NCBI GenBank assembly: GCA_025999455.1
Contig: AP024683.1
Span: forward strand, 3,226,451 to 3,290,450
From: Geminicoccaceae bacterium
GTDB taxonomy: Bacteria > Pseudomonadota > Alphaproteobacteria > Geminicoccales > Geminicoccaceae
Reading direction: 5' to 3'
DNA: 64,000 nucleotides
Below, in pieces: positions 46,079 to 53,877 of the stretch. The notes below the pieces were generated by a model. It ran no database searches. It saw only the letters and a program-made list of their open reading frames with translations, and was not told where the DNA came from. Positions within the stretch are counted from its first letter, which is position 1. The number at the start of each line of letters is the position of its first letter. A program made the translations under genes and the position numbers.

Positions 46079-47359
46079 GTGAGGGCACCGCTCCGGATCG
46101 CCTTCGTCTACCCGCACGCCGCGATCGGCCCCGCGGGGGAAGGTGTGGCGGATGCGCTTGCCGTGGTGCTGGTCGAGCTCGGCCGCCGGCTCGTCGAACG
46201 TGGCTGCGCGGTCACGGCTTTCGTCCGCCGGCGGCCTGGTGAGCCGGCCGCCTCGACCCTCGACGGCATCGCGATCCGGCGGATCGACCAGCTCGCCGAC
46301 CACCTCCTGTTCCGGCTCCGTCTGTTCGACCGCTTGCGCCCGGCCGACCGACCGCTCCGGGTGACCGGCCTCTATTACCCGGTCTTCGTGCGGAGGGTCG
46401 CCCGTGAGCTCGCCCGCACGGGCGTCGACATCGTCCACCTCCACAACAATGCCTGCTTCGTCGAGCCGCTCCGGCGCCGCCTGCCCGATGCCGATCTCGT
46501 GCTGCACCAGCACGACCACGCGCTCGCCGACTTCGCCCCCGAGCTCACCGCGGCACGGCTGCGCCGCGTGAAGCTTTTGCTCACCTGCAGCGACCATGTC
46601 CGCGCGCGCGTGCTCGAGCGCTTCCCCGAGATCGCCCCGCACGCCGCCACGCTCTGGAACGGCGTCGACGCCCGGTTCCTCGACGTCGCCTCCGATCCGG
46701 GGGCATCCTCCACGATCCTGTTCGTCGGTCGGCTCGCCCCGGAGAAGGGCGTGCACCTCCTGCTCGAGGCTTTCGACCGGATCGCCGACCGCCATCCCGA
46801 GGCCCGGCTCGAGCTCGTGGGTGCCCCCGACTTTTCGCCCAAGGAATTCGTCGACCCGTTCGACCGTGATCCCGTCATCCGCCCCCTCGCCCCGTGGTTC
46901 GCCCAGCCGCAGGCTTGGCGCCGGCACCTCGAGGGGCTCGCCGCCCGGCGGCCCGGTCGGATCGTACTGCGCGGCGCGCTCCTCAACCGCGAACTGCCGG
47001 CGGTGATGGCACCGGCGGGCATCTTCGCCTTCCCGACCATCTGGCACGAGCCGTTCGGCATGCCACCCGTCGAGGCCATGGCTGCGGGCCTGCCGGTCGT
47101 CGCCGGGCGCGCCGGCGCCCTTCCCGAAACCGTCGACCACGGGCGGACGGGGCTCCTCGTCGAGCGCGGCTCGGTCGAGGCGCTTGCGGAAGCGCTCGAT
47201 TCGCTCCTCGCTGACCCGCAGCGGCGCCGGGCGATGGGAGAGGCTGGCCGCGCCCGCGTCCAGGAGCGCTTCCGCTGGGACACCCTCGCCGACCGGCTGC
47301 TCGACCTCTACCGCGCGCACTGCCCACGCGCCGCACGCCGATCGATCTTTGCCCGCTGA
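46079..47359 (+). CDS. Glycosyltransferase family 4 protein (first of pair)
   Basis: A 426-residue GT-B fold glycosyltransferase. The acceptor half starts with RIAFVYPHAAIGP and has VDIVHLHNNACFVE; the donor half has FVGRLAPEKGVHLLLEAF and the GT4 motif HEPFGMPPVEAMAAGLPVVAG (Glu-x7-Glu). It transfers a sugar from an activated nucleotide donor with retention, probably onto a lipid-linked glycan or exopolysaccharide. GTG 46079 is the first plausible start. The next gene is a relative in the same direction, overlapping its end. Confidence 0.9.
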   Translation: MRAPLRIAFVYPHAAIGPAGEGVADALAVVLVELGRRLVERGCAVTAFVRRRPGEPAASTLDGIAIRRIDQLADHLLFRLRLFDRLRPADRPLRVTGLYYPVFVRRVARELARTGVDIVHLHNNACFVEPLRRRLPDADLVLHQHDHALADFAPELTAARLRRVKLLLTCSDHVRARVLERFPEIAPHAATLWNGVDARFLDVASDPGASSTILFVGRLAPEKGVHLLLEAFDRIADRHPEARLELVGAPDFSPKEFVDPFDRDPVIRPLAPWFAQPQAWRRHLEGLAARRPGRIVLRGALLNRELPAVMAPAGIFAFPTIWHEPFGMPPVEAMAAGLPVVAGRAGALPETVDHGRTGLLVERGSVEALAEALDSLLADPQRRRAMGEAGRARVQERFRWDTLADRLLDLYRAHCPRAARRSIFAR

Positions 47360-48692
47360 GCCCCGCTTGCGCATCGCCTTGGTGAGCCAGCCGCGCGATC
47401 CGATCGCCGCCACGGGCCCGCAGCGTGGCTCGGTCGCGATCGTCCTCGTGGAGCTCGCGCGCCGCCTCGCCCGCCGCCACGAGGTCCTGGTCCTCGCGCC
47501 GCGGCGGCCGGGCGAGCCCGAGGACGAGGTGACGATGGAGGGCGCGCAGGTGGCCCGCGTGGTGCCGCCCGCGGCCGCCCTCCATCGGCTCGTGGAGGCG
47601 GCGGGCGGCCTCCTCCCCGGCACCCGGCCGCACATGGCACGAAGCGTCTACTTCGCAGGATATCCGAGCCGGCTCGCGCCGCCCCTGGCCGCCTTCCGTC
47701 CCGACATCGTCCACGTGATGTGCGTGACGCCGTTCCTCCCGGCGCTCGCCCGCACACTCCCCGGGGTCCCCCTCGTACTCCATCTGCACGACGAGCTCCT
47801 CCTCGGGCTCGACCGCGCCACGGCGTCGGCGCGCCTCGCCCCGGCAGCGGCGGTCGTCACGGTCAGCACCTGGCTCGCCCGGCGCCTCGCCACTCGTTTC
47901 CCCGAGCACGCGGCCAAGTTCGTTCCGATCGGCAACGGCGTCGATCTCGACCGATTCACACCGGCGCCACGAGCGGAAGCCGAACCGGGACGCGAGCGCC
48001 TGCTCTTCGTCGGCCGGATCTCGCCCGAGAAGGGGGTGCACGTACTGCTCGACGCCTTCGCCCGACTCGCCCGGGAGCGCCCCGGCCTCGGCCTCGAGCT
48101 CGTCGGCGAACCCGGGCTCATGCCACGCGCGTTCCTCGAGCTCCTGGAGCGGACCCCCGCGCTCGAGACGGCTCTCGCCTTCTACGGCCGCGGGCCGCTC
48201 GAGCGGCTCCGTCGGCAGCTCGTCGACGGCGGCGACGGCTATCTGCGGACGATCCTCGACCGTCTGCCCGAACCGATCCGCGCCCGGGTCCGGGTCGCGG
48301 GACCCGTGCCGCACGACGCGCTCGTGGCGCGCTATCGGGCGGCCGACCTCCTCGTCGCCCCCTCGGTCTGCAACGAGCCCTTTTGTCTGCCGGTCGCCGA
48401 AGCCATGGCCTGCGGCCTTCCCTGCGTGGTGAGCGACGCCGGCGCACCGCCGGAGCTGATCGGCGCCCGGGGTCCGGAGGGGATCGCCGCGGCCGGGATC
48501 GCGGTTCCGCCCGGGGACGCCGCGGCGCTGGCCCGCGCGATCGCGACGCTCCTCGACGATCCCGACCGGCGCAGGGCGATGGGTCTCGCCGCCCGTCGCC
48601 GCGCCGACGAGCTTCTCGGCTGGGACGAGGCCGTCGCCCGGCTCGAGGCGGTCTACCGCTCGCTCCGCGCCCCGGCCGCGCCCGTGGCCTGA
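47349..48692 (+). CDS. Glycosyltransferase family 4 protein (second of pair)
   Basis: A 447-residue GT4 enzyme related to the preceding one, with RIALVSQPRDPIAATGPQRGS at its N-terminus, VPLVLHLHDELLLG, FVGRISPEKGVHVLLDAF and NEPFCLPVAEAMACGLPCVVS. The start is uncertain: TTG 47349 overlaps the upstream stop and gives a lead-in like its paralogue, TTG 47367 is the alternative. No clear ribosome-binding site precedes either, so translational coupling is likely. Its 3' end overlaps the convergent GH43-like gene by 40 bases. Confidence 0.87.
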   Translation: MPAEPRLRIALVSQPRDPIAATGPQRGSVAIVLVELARRLARRHEVLVLAPRRPGEPEDEVTMEGAQVARVVPPAAALHRLVEAAGGLLPGTRPHMARSVYFAGYPSRLAPPLAAFRPDIVHVMCVTPFLPALARTLPGVPLVLHLHDELLLGLDRATASARLAPAAAVVTVSTWLARRLATRFPEHAAKFVPIGNGVDLDRFTPAPRAEAEPGRERLLFVGRISPEKGVHVLLDAFARLARERPGLGLELVGEPGLMPRAFLELLERTPALETALAFYGRGPLERLRRQLVDGGDGYLRTILDRLPEPIRARVRVAGPVPHDALVARYRAADLLVAPSVCNEPFCLPVAEAMACGLPCVVSDAGAPPELIGARGPEGIAAAGIAVPPGDAAALARAIATLLDDPDRRRAMGLAARRRADELLGWDEAVARLEAVYRSLRAPAAPVA

Positions 48693-50212
48693 GCCGATGG
48701 ACGCGCCGCCCGCCGCTCGGCGAGCAAGGCGCGCAGATTGGCGAGGAACGCCCGAAGCGACCGCCGCTCGCGCTTGCCGTCGACCAGGATCCCGGCCTCG
48801 CTCACGGTGAGCGTGTGCAGCCCGTCCGGGCAGGGCCCGGTGGGGTCCGGATCGAGCCGGGCGATCGGCACTTCGCGATAGAGGCCGGGTGTGAGCGCCT
48901 CGATCCGGTTGATCACGACCGCCCCACCGTAGGTCCGCGTGCAGTCCTGAGCCGGGCGGTAGAGCCGGCCCTCCTGTTCGAAGATCGGCCCCGCCGGCCG
49001 CGCCGAGCCCAGATCGTCCACGACCGGACTCATCGGGTGCCGGCGCCAGGGGCCGCGCAGCGCCTCGGCCACGAACAGATGCAGCCGGCCCTCGTCCTGG
49101 TCCGCCCGGTCGCCGGCGAAGAGGTACCACTGCCCGCCGTGGCGCAGCACGGTCGGATCGACCCCGGCGAAGCCCTCGACCAGCACCGCGTCGGGCTCGA
49201 AGCGGTCGGGGAACGGTGCCGCCCGCCAGAGCTGGATGCGACCGGTGGCGGACGCCTCCGGCAGGAGGAAGATCTCGCCGCCCTCCTCGACCAGGAACGG
49301 CCAGGAGAGGTGGTGGGCGGCGCGCAGCACCGGGACCACCGGGGCCCCGGCCTCGAGCCCGGTGCGCACGAGGTGGCCGCGATGGGTGGCGGGATCGAAC
49401 GCCTCGGCCAGGACCACCTGCCCGCGCACGCCCACGGGGTCGGCGAGCCAGCCCTCGCTCCGGACCGGCAGCCAGCGGATGGATGGTCTCGAACCCTCGA
49501 GCAGCGCCGCCGGGTCCGCGTCCAGCACCCCGAGGCGCCACGCTTCCTCGATTGTACAGTCGAACAAACGGCGCACCGCTCCGGAGGCTTCCCGGAAGCG
49601 GCGCGCCCGCGGCTCGGGCGGCGGTGTCGGGTCGAGGCGGAGCTGCCGCTCGACCTCTGGCCCCTCGAGCCCGGCCCGCCGCCAGGCGAGCGCCCGGGCC
49701 GGCCAGCGGGCGATCACGTCGAGCACGCGCGCCCGGGTCGCGGCGAGCGAGTGGGGTACCGCCTTGATGCGGCCCTCGACCAGCACCCGGCCCTCGCCCG
49801 GACCCTCGAGCTCGACTAGGCGCGCGAGCACCGACCGCTCGCCGCGGACGAGCTCCGCTCCCCCGGGCGGGCCGGGGCGAGCTTCCGGGCCGAAGCGGAA
49901 CTGCCAGACCGTGACGCCCGGATCGAGGCGGGGCGGGCCGAAGCCGAGATCGACCACGAGCCCGATCCCGGCTTCGCGAAGGCGCCCGGACAGATCCGGC
50001 GCCCGCTCGTCGATCCACGGCCCGAGGTCCGCCCCGTCCGCCGGAGGACCGAGCCACGATGGGGGCGGCAGCCCCTGCTCGGCGAGCGTCGACGCCACCG
50101 CCCTCTGCCAGGACTCGACCGGCCCCTGGAGCCGGAGCGCGACACCATGCGGCAGTTCGGCAACAACTCGTCGACCAGCCTGCGACACCCCTCGTTCCCG
50201 CGAAGGTGGCAT
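48653..50212 (-). CDS. GH43-like beta-propeller protein with N-terminal unknown domain
   Basis: A 519-residue protein. The C-terminal half (about 270-480) resembles the five-bladed GH43-like region found in bacterial formyltransferase-like and glucosamine inositolphosphorylceramide transferase N-terminal proteins: WPFLVEEGGEIFLLPEA, RIQLWRA, FAGVDPTVLRHGGQWYLFAGD, RGPWRRHPMSPVVDD, GRLYRPAQDCTRTYGGAVV. The N-terminal half has VWQFRFG and GRVLVEG blocks of the same protein group, but no complete formyltransferase site is visible. It is probably a sugar-modifying or glycan-binding enzyme of the surrounding cluster. The start is uncertain (ATG 50212 or 50245). Confidence 0.65.
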   Translation of the reverse strand: MPPSRERGVSQAGRRVVAELPHGVALRLQGPVESWQRAVASTLAEQGLPPPSWLGPPADGADLGPWIDERAPDLSGRLREAGIGLVVDLGFGPPRLDPGVTVWQFRFGPEARPGPPGGAELVRGERSVLARLVELEGPGEGRVLVEGRIKAVPHSLAATRARVLDVIARWPARALAWRRAGLEGPEVERQLRLDPTPPPEPRARRFREASGAVRRLFDCTIEEAWRLGVLDADPAALLEGSRPSIRWLPVRSEGWLADPVGVRGQVVLAEAFDPATHRGHLVRTGLEAGAPVVPVLRAAHHLSWPFLVEEGGEIFLLPEASATGRIQLWRAAPFPDRFEPDAVLVEGFAGVDPTVLRHGGQWYLFAGDRADQDEGRLHLFVAEALRGPWRRHPMSPVVDDLGSARPAGPIFEQEGRLYRPAQDCTRTYGGAVVINRIEALTPGLYREVPIARLDPDPTGPCPDGLHTLTVSEAGILVDGKRERRSLRAFLANLRALLAERRAARPSAQATGAAGARSER

Positions 50213-50297
50213 CCCCGGCGCGCTTCGGTCCCCGGTCCCAACCATGCTACAGGGGGGCGGAACGGAGCACGGGCTCCGGCTCGAGGAAGGGCGGGGG

Positions 50298-52370
50298 ATG
50301 GCGGAGACGCGGCCGCTCGTCAGTATCGGTTTGCCGGTCTTCAACGGCGAGGCCTATCTCGAGGACGCGATCCGCTCGGTCCTCGCCCAGACGCTCGACG
50401 ACCTCGAGCTCGTGATCTCCGACAACGCGTCGACCGATCGCACGGCCGAGATCTGCCGCGACTGGGCGGCCACCGACCGCCGGGTACGCTACCTGCGCAA
50501 CCTGCAGAATCTCGGCGCCGCGCCGAACTACAACCGAACGTTCGCCGAAAGTCGGGGCCATTACTTCAAGTGGCTGGCCCACGACGATCGCCTGCGGCCG
50601 GGCTATCTCGCCGCTACCCTCGCGGTGCTCGAAGCCGATCCGAGCGTCGTTCTCTGCAACACCACCGTCGCCTACATCGACGCACGGGGTGCCCCGCTCG
50701 GCGAGTATCGCAGCCCGCTCGGCCTCGCCGGCGCGGCACGACCCTCGGAGCGGTTCGCGGCCCTCGTGCTCCGCTCGCACAGCTGTGTCGACTTCTTCGG
50801 AACGATCCGCCGCTCCGCGCTCGAAGGCTCTTTGCTGCACGGTCCTTTCCCCGGCGCCGACCGGGCGCTTCTGGCCCAGCTCGCGCTGCGCGGTCGCATG
50901 GTCCAGCTCGAGCCGCCGCTCGTCGAGATGCGCGAGCACCCGCACCGCTACACCCGCAGTCGGCGCAGTGTTGCCGAGCGGCAGCGTTGGCACGAGGCCG
51001 GGGCGACGCGGCGGCCGATCCCGTCCCTCGAGCTCTGGCGCACCTATCGCCGCTTGGTCGCGAGCGAGCCCCTCGATTCGGAGGAACGTCGCGCCTGTCG
51101 GCGGGTCCTGCTCCGCTGGTGGTTCGTCAATTGGAACGCGCTCCGGCTCGTCGCCGACCTCGCCGACTGCGTGGCACCCGGTGCCGTCGCCCGGGCCGAA
51201 GACCTCAAGACGCGGCTTTTCGGCGCGGCGCCCGGCCACTTCATCCAGCTCGCGGAGGCTCCACGGGTGCCGCCGGCGCGCGGGGCCGTCGCGCGTCGGG
51301 CCGATCCCTACGGCCTCGGCGCGTGTTTCGAGGACTGCGCGCCGATCTTCGTGGTGGGCGCGCCGCGCTCGGGCACGAGCCTCCTGGCCCGCATGCTGGA
51401 TGCGCACCCCGCGATCGGCCTCGCCGACGAACTCTGTTTCTTCGACATCGTCCTCGGCGCCCGGCGCGAGGTGCCGGAGCTCGACAGCGCCGAGCGGATC
51501 GAGCGGTTCCTCGAGCTCCTCCCGAACATGGACCATGTCCGCTACTGGGCGGACGGTGAGCTGCTGATCCGAGCCGCGGCCGAGCGGCTGCGGGCCGATC
51601 CGAGCCCGTGCTACGCCGCCTTCTACCGCCACCTCATGGAATGCCGTGCCGCGGCGCTCGGAAAGCGCCGCTTCGGCGAGAAGACGCCCTGGAACGTCCG
51701 CCACCTCGAGGCGCTCGAAGCTCTCTTTCCGAACGCCCGGTTCCTGCACATCGTCCGCGACCCGCGCGCGGTGGTTGCCTCCAAGCGCAAACTGCCGTGC
51801 ACCTCGCGCGACGTCGTCACCAACGCCGTCAAATGGTCGATCGACGTCGCCGCCGCCGGGCGGTACCGGGAGGGTTCCCCGGATCGGGCGGCCCGGCTGC
51901 TCGAGATCCGCTACGAGGACCTCGTACGCAGCCCCGAGGCGGTGCTGCGCCGGGTCACCGACTTCCTGGGCGAGCCTTTCGATCCGGCGATGCTCGCCTT
52001 CGCCGAGGCCGGCGCCCTCGCCTTCAAGGACCAGCCCTGGCGCGAGGGTGTCCGGCGGCCACTGTTCGACTCCTCGCCGGAGGCCTGGCGTACCGAGCTC
52101 TTACCCGTGCAACTCTGGCTCGTCCAACGGCTCACCCGGACGAGCATGGTCCGCTACGGCTACGCGGCCGAACCGGTCCCGCTGCGCGCGCGCCTCGAAC
52201 TGCCGCTGCAGGTGCTACACGAGCTCGGTGCCTGGCTCGCTTTCAAGCGCGACGAGACCCGCCATCGTGCCGCGGAGCCGGCCATCCACTTCCGCGCCCC
52301 CACCACACCGCTCTACAAGCTGCTGATGCGGGCCATCCTCAAAGGTGGTGGCCCCAGCCGCTTTCTTTGA
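50298..52370 (+). CDS. Fusion of GT2 glycosyltransferase and sulfotransferase
   Basis: A 690-residue two-domain enzyme. Residues about 8-230 form a GT2 (GT-A) domain with VSIGLPVFNGEAYLEDAIRS, ELVISDNASTDRTAEI and the metal-binding LAHDD. Residues about 345-620 form a sulfotransferase domain with the PAPS 5'-phosphosulfate loop FVVGAPRSGTSLLARML and the 3'-phosphate site HIVRDPRAVVASKRKL. It would add a sugar and a sulfate to the same glycan. ATG 50298 has GAGGAAGGG upstream. It is divergent from the GH43-like gene and overlaps the convergent flippase by 32 bases. Confidence 0.9.
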   Translation: MAETRPLVSIGLPVFNGEAYLEDAIRSVLAQTLDDLELVISDNASTDRTAEICRDWAATDRRVRYLRNLQNLGAAPNYNRTFAESRGHYFKWLAHDDRLRPGYLAATLAVLEADPSVVLCNTTVAYIDARGAPLGEYRSPLGLAGAARPSERFAALVLRSHSCVDFFGTIRRSALEGSLLHGPFPGADRALLAQLALRGRMVQLEPPLVEMREHPHRYTRSRRSVAERQRWHEAGATRRPIPSLELWRTYRRLVASEPLDSEERRACRRVLLRWWFVNWNALRLVADLADCVAPGAVARAEDLKTRLFGAAPGHFIQLAEAPRVPPARGAVARRADPYGLGACFEDCAPIFVVGAPRSGTSLLARMLDAHPAIGLADELCFFDIVLGARREVPELDSAERIERFLELLPNMDHVRYWADGELLIRAAAERLRADPSPCYAAFYRHLMECRAAALGKRRFGEKTPWNVRHLEALEALFPNARFLHIVRDPRAVVASKRKLPCTSRDVVTNAVKWSIDVAAAGRYREGSPDRAARLLEIRYEDLVRSPEAVLRRVTDFLGEPFDPAMLAFAEAGALAFKDQPWREGVRRPLFDSSPEAWRTELLPVQLWLVQRLTRTSMVRYGYAAEPVPLRARLELPLQVLHELGAWLAFKRDETRHRAAEPAIHFRAPTTPLYKLLMRAILKGGGPSRFL

Positions 52371-53877
52371 GACGAGCCGTCCGACGGTCGACGCCGCCGC
52401 GTGCCGCGCGAAGGCCCAGCGCGGCACGGCGGAGCGCGGGGCGCGCGACGAGGGGCAGCGCCAGCAGGTAAGTGACGATTGCGCAGCCGGCGGCGAGCCC
52501 GACGCTCGCGAGGCTCGCCGGCTCGTCCAGGACACCGCGTACGAGGAGCGCGGCCGCGACCATCGCGGCTCCGGCGAGGAGGATCGGCAGGAGCGGCCGC
52601 AGGACCGAACCAATCGCGATGCCGAGTATGCGCCGCGCGAGAAGCAACCGGGCCGGCAGCAGCAACCAGCCGCGCAGGGAGAACGCGGCCGCCACCCCGT
52701 AGGCGCCCCATCCCAGGAGCGGCAGGAGGAGGGCCAGGAGAACGAGACCGCCCGCGACACCGAGCGCCAAGACGAGATCGGCACGGCCGGCGGCTTGGAA
52801 GGCGCTCGTGAGGAGGAGCCCGAGCGGCAGGATCGGGCCCGAGAGTGCCAGAAGCCGCAGCGCCTCGCCGGCCTCGCGCCAGGGCTCGCCGAAAGCCGTG
52901 GCCACGAGATCGGGGGCGAGGACGACACCTACGAGATAGCCCGGCACGGCGAGGAGGGCGGTGAGCTCGACCGCCGTGGCGAGCCCCTCCGACAGGCGCC
53001 TCGGCTCGTGGGCGAGGCGAGCGAAGCCGGGCAATGCCACCCGCAGCGCCGGACGCGTCACGAGCTCGGCCGAGAGCTCGAAGAGCTTGCGGGCGAGGCC
53101 CCAGAGCCCGACCGCGATCGGCCCCGCGGCGGCGGCGAGCAGGAGGCGCGGGAGGAACAGCTCGCCGAGCGTGACGAGCTGCTCCCCCGTGATGCCGAGG
53201 GCGAAGCAGCCGATCGCCCGCACCTGTCGCAGCGCGAAGGCCGGCTGCGGGCGATGGCCGGCGGCGAGCCCGAGCACGACGGCGCCGGCGAGCGGCCAGG
53301 CGATCTCGTTGGCGACCAGCGCCCAGGGGCCGGCGCCGGCGAGTGCCAGGGCCACCGCCACGGCGCCGCCGACACCGGCCCCCAGGATCGAGCGGAGCGC
53401 CAAGGGCGCGAGGGCCAAGCGCCGCTGCAGAAGCCCCGCCGGGACCACCATGAGGCTCGTGAGCAGCGGACAAACGGAAAGCGCCGCGAGCAAGGGCCCG
53501 AGCTCGGGCAGGCCGAACCAGGACGAAACCAGGGGCGCCGACGCGAGGAGCAGGCAGGTGCTCACGAGACCGAGCCCGGCGAGCAGCCAGAAGACCGAGT
53601 CGACCTCGGCGCGCGACAGCTCGGGCCGCTGGACGAGCGCCTCGATCCACCCGCCGTGCACGAGGAGGTTCTGCGGCACGAGGACGAAGGCCATGGCGAG
53701 CGCCACGAGCCCGTAAGCCTCGGGCCCGACGAGGCGAGCCAAGAGAAGGAAGGCGAGGAGCTGGAGGAGCTCGACGCCCCAGACCTCGAGCGTCGCCCAG
53801 AGGGCGCCACGGGCGATCCGCCGAGCCTCGGGCGCAGCCGTCGCGACCGGCTCGCCGCCCGACCCCGGCTCGCTCAT
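52339..53877 (-). CDS. Oligosaccharide flippase family (Wzx/MATE-like) protein
   Basis: A 512-residue polytopic protein with about 12-14 helices, resembling Wzx/polysaccharide-biosynthesis flippases: ARRIARGALWATLEVWGVEL at the start, LLLARLVGPEAYGLVALAMA (the G-P-E-x-Y-G motif of the family), VPQNLLVHGGWIEALVQRPEL and LGITGEQLV. It probably moves lipid-linked glycans across the inner membrane for the 46-53.9 kb cluster. Its ATG overlaps the malQ stop (ATGA), which couples it to a glucan enzyme. Confidence 0.85.
   Translation of the reverse strand: MSEPGSGGEPVATAAPEARRIARGALWATLEVWGVELLQLLAFLLLARLVGPEAYGLVALAMAFVLVPQNLLVHGGWIEALVQRPELSRAEVDSVFWLLAGLGLVSTCLLLASAPLVSSWFGLPELGPLLAALSVCPLLTSLMVVPAGLLQRRLALAPLALRSILGAGVGGAVAVALALAGAGPWALVANEIAWPLAGAVVLGLAAGHRPQPAFALRQVRAIGCFALGITGEQLVTLGELFLPRLLLAAAAGPIAVGLWGLARKLFELSAELVTRPALRVALPGFARLAHEPRRLSEGLATAVELTALLAVPGYLVGVVLAPDLVATAFGEPWREAGEALRLLALSGPILPLGLLLTSAFQAAGRADLVLALGVAGGLVLLALLLPLLGWGAYGVAAAFSLRGWLLLPARLLLARRILGIAIGSVLRPLLPILLAGAAMVAAALLVRGVLDEPASLASVGLAAGCAIVTYLLALPLVARPALRRAALGLRAARGGVDRRTARLKESGWGHHL

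Follow-up and report, generated by a model that had tools for sequence, protein, structure and literature searches.

The gene at positions 50298..52370 of the window (the whole 64,000-nucleotide stretch of DNA that was analysed) encodes a GT2 glycosyltransferase and a sulfotransferase in one chain, and this fusion is a real, narrowly distributed joining of two known enzyme kinds. The reading frame runs from an ATG at 50298 to a stop at 52368-52370 with no internal stops, and it lies in a genome (G000) that consists of one contig of 3,762,466 bases and is 99.69% complete. A domain search placed both Pfam domains in the single frame: Glycos_transf_2 (PF00535) at residues 9-172 (93.1 bits, E 2.4e-26, against a cut-off of 23.3) and Sulfotransfer_3 (PF13469) at residues 349-563 (131 bits, E 9e-38), the latter covering profile positions 1-216 of 216. 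Two matches of this strength in one frame exclude chance, and a second assembly of the genus (G005) agrees, which bears out the one-chain architecture proposed in the initial annotation. No NCBIfam family scored above its cut-off for the fusion protein; the partial matches below cut-off included TuaG for the GT2 half, far under the threshold, and a weak one to NoeE for the sulfotransferase half.

Two enzyme domains in one chain

The features of the fusion gene are as follows.

50298..52370, + strand: GT2-sulfotransferase fusion gene, 690 aa, ATG start, TGA stop; same fusion in G005
50298..51236, + strand: GT2 unit, residues 1-313 (Pfam core 9-172), full length against stand-alone relatives
50577..50588, + strand: GT-A metal motif in the family form A94-H-D-D97, with Ala as the first Asp of DXD
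50850..50861, + strand: P185-G-A-D188; D188 is a candidate catalytic base by analogy
51237..51338, + strand: linker, residues 314-347, the fastest-changing part together with the C-tail
51267..51269, + strand: codon 324, an in-frame GTG preceded by GGAGG, from which a free sulfotransferase might be translated
51342..51986, + strand: Sulfotransfer_3 domain, residues 349-563 (Pfam; PDB profile match to TPST1/TPST2)
51363..51383, + strand: 5'-phosphosulfate-binding loop PRSGTSL, residues 356-362 (alignment of seven sulfotransferases, PDB profile)
51429..51431, + strand: E378, opposite the Glu of TPST 'CGEET'
51681..51683, + strand: K462 (GEKTPWN), opposite TPST 'NKDPF'
51756..51782, + strand: 3'-phosphate-binding motif RDPRAVVAS, residues 487-495 (alignment of seven sulfotransferases, PDB profile)

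The GT2 half has the GT-A fold in the AlphaFold model (residues 1-310), where, of the first 31 blocks of ten residues, 27 have a pLDDT of 81-98 and the other four 68-79; the best Foldseek matches are GT2 structures, with E down to 6e-13. K4 chondroitin polymerase, GalT1/CgT 5HEA and TuaG share this fold and align with the GT2 half in the DNASTD and HDD stretches. It differs from K4 chondroitin polymerase, GalT1 and TuaG in a C-terminal helical part of its own and in having AHDD for DXD. K4 chondroitin polymerase has D-S-D-D opposite AHDD; Ala thus takes the place of the first Asp, and the full DXD motif is absent from the GT2 half. Because AHDD is unchanged in all 26 aligned rows (the fusion protein and 25 relatives), it is the family's own form rather than damage. 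Many GT2 proteins retain only the second Asp, and GT2 membership stands on profile and fold. The initial annotation had called the metal motif complete, which is only partly right: D42, D96, D97 and D188 are invariant in the 26 rows, but the first Asp of DXD is Ala throughout. By analogy with other GT2 proteins, D188 is the candidate catalytic base. Residue 185 (window 50850-50852) is Pro in G000 alone; it is His in 23 of the 26 rows and Tyr in two.

In the sulfotransferase half both PAPS loops are intact (P356-R-S-G-T-S-L362 and R487-DPRAVVA-S495), as had been claimed, and R357, S358, G359, T360, R487, D488, P489, R490 and S495 are identical in all seven aligned sulfotransferases. Position 378 is Glu in five of the seven and Gly in the two most distant; the Glu that it faces in TPST 'CGEET' is presumably catalytic there. 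Lys-462 is present in 7/7 rows, and both fused copies keep R357, E378, K462, R487 and S495. According to the initial annotation, a domain without essential residues would refute its proposal; none is clearly missing in either half, with AHDD and P185 as the positions to note. A PDB search with the profile of the seven sulfotransferases gave TPST1/TPST2 as the best matches (E 1e-25 to 7e-21) and also matched the CurM sulfotransferase (E 1.4e-13). The TPSTs share with the second half the full Sulfotransfer_3 profile, both PAPS loops and the aligned Glu and Lys, whereas here the sulfotransferase is the C-terminal half of a bacterial GT2 protein. Much of this half has a pLDDT below 50 in an AlphaFold model that was built almost without alignment rows and is unreliable here. 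In the sulfotransferase tree, which has long branches and contains two identical rows, the two fused copies group with 100/100 support.

Distribution and history of the fusion

The initial annotation called such a protein uncommon, and this holds for the present homologous family. Among 60 genomes searched, 15 have full-length matches to the GT2 half and six match the second half at E <1e-50, and a fusion of the two occurs in G000 and G005 alone, two of the six genomes of the genus. In the other four (G001-G004) a stand-alone GT2 gene occupies this locus. Four genomes of other genera (G022, G017, G010 and G027) have a free sulfotransferase gene, which lies 6.5 kb from the GT2 gene in G022, 52 kb from it in G017 and on a different contig in G010 and G027. 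In genome_contigs, one of 29 loci continues in frame into a sulfotransferase (L088, the G005 contig again). Across 385 genomes of the class, with the best three candidates per genome scored, a full-length match to the fusion model was found only in G000 among the matches listed; G005 was not among these, and the model describes the homologous fusion, so that unrelated GT2-sulfotransferase fusions would be missed. The large frames L034, L035 and L033 of other lineages contain no GT2-sulfotransferase fusion. A phage or plasmid origin was rejected: viral_contigs held no relative of P0001 or of the sulfotransferase alignment A2, and none of the 699 matching plasmid records covered 80% of the query. 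Such a fusion is not reported among the matches listed in the open-licence literature, nor in the accessible part of the closest paper (PMC4483657). The neighbours include Geminicoccaceae MAGs, and two of the closest bear the isolate names HOT.CON.139 and SKYG96, which may point to hot springs.

In G005 the GT2 half ends one contig and the sulfotransferase half ends another (L039/L040; C113, C36), and the two ends overlap by exactly 141 identical bases in the P-loop region of the sulfotransferase, giving one open frame. The position of this assembly break, inside the P-loop, perhaps reflects strain variation at the fusion gene. The G005 gene is 78.7% identical to that of the window over 2,024 bases of DNA, and in each part, also in the linker, divergence is highest at third codon positions. 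The NG86 dN/dS values, taken from this single pair and without a significance test, rise from the GT2 (0.19) through the linker (0.22) and the sulfotransferase core (0.27) to the C-tail (0.33), which points to purifying selection on both halves. The G005 linker has no Shine-Dalgarno-like motif at its in-frame GTG codons.

To place the fusion in the genus we used a DNA tree of the EF-Tu locus, in which the identity of the EF-Tu gene was confirmed in three of the six genomes (G000, G005 and G002) and the root, between G001 + G003 and the remainder, was taken from the GT2 tree. Its topology is (G001,G003),(G002,(G005,(G000,G004))); the pairing of G000 with G004 has support of 88.2/86, and the other two inner splits, including the one that sets G002 outside G000, G004 and G005, have 100/100. 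The GT2 tree likewise recovers the trio of G000, G004 and G005 (96/98) and, less firmly, these three with G002 (85/89).

The GT2 genes of G002 and G004 end at about the linker, and in G002 a relic, 'FEDCAPTSVVRVPRS', follows 28 bases after the GT2 stop in the +1 frame, frameshifted. Its score was reached by none of 400 dinucleotide shuffles per query, and by none of 1000 against the first 45 residues, and it is plainly the start of a sulfotransferase. Judging from the sequence, the sulfotransferase half of G002 has been lost by frameshift and deletion. The DNA match between G002 and G005 is collinear through GT2, linker and relic, and therefore a join, not mere adjacency, would have existed in the ancestor of G002. 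Together with the tree, the relic implies that a sulfotransferase already followed the GT2 in the common ancestor of G000, G002, G004 and G005, barring lateral transfer of the locus. Given vertical descent, it follows that the half was lost in G004 rather than never there, as we infer. A stretch in the right place in G004, 'AAPLYRSLLDLLK', was rejected as a sulfotransferase trace, since its score was reached by 58 of 1000 shuffles with the G005 query and 152 of 1000 with the G000 query and is not significant. Candidate traces were likewise unconvincing in G001 (386/400 and 145/400 shuffles reached the score with two queries) and in the MAG L093 (15/400 and 133/400); the interval in G003 is 48 bases. 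A rearrangement that placed the GT2 before the sulfotransferase would be the simplest route to the fusion. We read the history as the joining, at the level of the genus, of two partners from one surface-glycan locus, undone later in some species.

A probable surface-glycan locus and a proposed function

The fusion gene lies among genes for glycan assembly and export.

46079..47359, + strand: GT4 glycosyltransferase (Pfam; gene order in congeners)
47184..48692, + strand: second GT4 glycosyltransferase (listed frame; the true start is probably downstream)
48653..50344, - strand: GINT1_N-domain protein, divergent from the fusion gene (the listed start overlaps it by 47 bases; the true start may be shorter)
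52339..53877, - strand: Wzx-type flippase (Polysacc_synt_3), convergent, sharing 32 bases with the 3' end of the fusion gene

The window locus thus combines a sulfotransferase, glycosyltransferases and a flippase, the set by which sulfated-exopolysaccharide loci are recognised. In G001 the order is GT4, GT4, GINT1, GT2 and Wzx, with a GT2 that has no sulfotransferase half; in G003 the GINT1 match is absent and one GT4 match is broken, and the loci of G002 and G004 are truncated by contig ends. The cluster of G022, from another genus, has GT2, GT4, GT4, GINT1, a flippase and a free sulfotransferase; the last shares 48% identity with the fused one and is convergent with the flippase in the same tail-to-tail layout as in the window. 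The G022 flippase falls into the Pfam families of the window flippase, which nevertheless does not match it at E 1e-15. G028 (L025) has a related GT2 at 897-1937, after which a separate Sulfotransfer_3 gene in the same orientation lies at about 2222-2812.

Comparable systems are known in part. The second half is 28.5% identical to a Synechocystis sulfotransferase on pSYSM, which lies among glycosyltransferase and flippase genes and, by gene order, would match xssE. The accessible part of PMC8205485 names two sulfotransferases of the pSYSM xss cluster in synechan synthesis and describes an xssE mutant that retained bloom formation and EPS accumulation. The synechan (Xss) system of Synechocystis 6803 resembles the window in gathering sulfotransferases, glycosyltransferases and a flippase in one locus, and differs in that its sulfotransferase is a separate gene. 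NDST (N-deacetylase/N-sulfotransferase) is an animal enzyme of heparan sulfate and a deacetylase, not a glycosyltransferase. Like the fusion, it has a glycan-acting domain and a sulfotransferase domain on one chain (accessible part of PMC10864358).

Our favoured explanation, to which as a whole we give an even chance, is that the fusion protein serves a small Wzx-linked surface-glycan locus as a bifunctional enzyme and that the fusion is facultative. The GT2 half would extend a lipid-linked oligosaccharide at the cytosolic face by a sugar drawn from a nucleotide sugar, the TPST-like half would then sulfate a hydroxyl of the added sugar or of its neighbour with PAPS, and the Wzx flippase would export the unit after sulfation. 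Both activities, their order, the substrate and PAPS as donor are suggested by domains, motifs and gene context. Two partners of one ancestral glycan cluster would have been joined no later than the ancestor of G000, G002, G004 and G005, and the sulfotransferase half would afterwards have decayed in G002 and been lost in G004. The domain matches and motifs, the same fusion in G005, dN/dS values below 1 and the shared glycan locus favour this explanation, as do the G002 relic, the free sulfotransferase of G022 in a like cluster, the GT2-sulfotransferase pair of G028 and the setting of the pSYSM relative. The proline at 185 unique to G000, the non-significant trace in G004, the failure of the window flippase to match that of G022 and the dependence of the ancestral join on the collinear match between G002 and G005 count against it.

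So does the sufficiency of the GT2 half alone in four congeners. The initial annotation suggested that the two steps are obligatorily coupled; this is not supported, because the congeners run the GT2 alone. The sulfotransferase likewise occurs alone in four genomes of other genera, and one copy is a frameshifted relic. Coupling in one chain may help to channel the acceptor.

Sulfuryl donor supply and alternative explanations

A further point against a bifunctional enzyme is that searches of the two fusion-bearing genomes yielded no enzyme that makes PAPS. APS kinase was not found in G000 or G005, where the best scores were 22.4 and 25.1 bits, respectively, and the 22.4-bit protein of G000 was rejected as APH plus AAA_33. 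In genome searches CysNC and CysD were absent from G000, G002 and G005 and present in G001, G003 and G004; CysH was not found in G000 or G005, nor Sat (ATP sulfurylase) in a search of G000. The sole PF01507 proteins of G000 (38.8 bits) and G005 (35.8 bits) were rejected as CysD or CysH since they are DndC (NCBIfam 369.6 and 370.7 bits, cut-off 290.4), and the best CysN-like matches of G000, G005 and G002 are EF-Tu. The window and ten checked pieces of G000 are free of N, and the genomes may contain N stretches elsewhere. As an observation apart from donor supply, DndC, of DNA phosphorothioation, is present in both fusion-bearing genomes (L120, G000:C1 ~3535440; L121, G005:C32:1400-1939), and a DndD-like ORF, partial in the stretch examined, lies beside it in G000.

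A gene near cysDNC, which we take to be DUF882-like, is missing from the same three genomes (G000, G002 and G005), so that the junction of a possible shared cysDNC deletion is unreadable. CysNC identities are 84.8% between G004 and G001, 83.9% between G004 and G003 and 90.7% between G001 and G003, as vertical descent predicts, and the cys genes have thus probably been lost two or three times. G000 nevertheless has six Sulfotransfer_1/3 loci, the fusion included, and four of the other five cover nearly the whole Sulfotransfer_1 profile. At G000:C1 764389-767091, three sulfotransferase genes lie within 2.7 kb on both strands. Among 30 genomes searched, 25 have PF13469 matches, and 20 of these have an APS kinase above 200 bits; the five without a strong one are G000, G002, G005, G010 (87% complete) and G034. 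The last, of the same class and 100% complete, has seven PF13469 matches (best E 5e-49) and an APS kinase match of only 22.2 bits; sulfotransferases without a PAPS route may thus extend beyond the genus. In work on a marine Vibrio, the accessible part of PMC11641403 gives PAPS and sulfotransferase genes in a cluster as a hallmark of sulfated polysaccharide loci; genome searches of G000 and G005 found no such PAPS-synthesis genes for the window locus. Donor supply in both fusion-bearing genomes is doubtful, and the missing PAPS route is the surprise of this analysis and the part most worth testing.

These absences from G000, G005 and G002 (APS kinase, CysN and CysD) could mean that the sulfotransferase half is a passenger, left without PAPS by the loss of sulfate activation, with the GT2 working alone and decay pending. 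In G002 no more than a relic of it is left, and the CysNC of G004 is about equidistant from those of G001 and G003, so that the losses may be separate and recent. We nonetheless consider this unlikely, if a serious contender, in view of the binding motifs retained in both species, the dN/dS of the sulfotransferase core and the five further sulfotransferase loci kept in G000. Moreover, G004 has the cys genes and yet lacks the second half, which indicates that one loss does not accompany the other.

The six sulfotransferase loci of G000, a nearly complete genome in one contig without a known PAPS route, and the five PF13469 genomes without a strong APS kinase, would also fit a fusion kept functional after the loss of that route, with PAPS from an unrecognised source or another sulfuryl donor in the PAPS loops. 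We regard this as improbable: no candidate enzyme came to light, the PAPS loops have the canonical form, and PAPS-independent aryl sulfotransferases belong to other Pfam families (PF05935/PF14269; accessible part of PMC11625862).

That the target of the second half is a protein tyrosine or a small molecule, and not the glycan of this locus, is suggested by its best solved relatives, the protein-tyrosine sulfotransferases 1 and 2, but is quite improbable given the glycan-assembly context in the window and in G022, the weak NoeE match and the inclusion in PF13469 of the glycolipid sulfotransferase NodH (accessible part of PMC11625862). An assembly or frameshift artefact, which the GT2 ends of G002 and G004 near the linker and the broken G005 assembly might bring to mind, is scarcely credible in the face of a continuous frame in two independent assemblies whose copies of the gene differ at more than a fifth of their bases, with third codon positions the most divergent in each part.

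Under the favoured explanation of a facultative bifunctional enzyme, the genomes form an ordered series, from free partners in related genera, through fusion in two species, to decay or loss in others, and this series illustrates how two enzymes of a glycan locus can become fused and later come apart again. With two species that have intact sulfotransferases without the sulfate-activation genes of three congeners, the genus also offers a test of whether Sulfotransfer_3 proteins need PAPS made by the cell.
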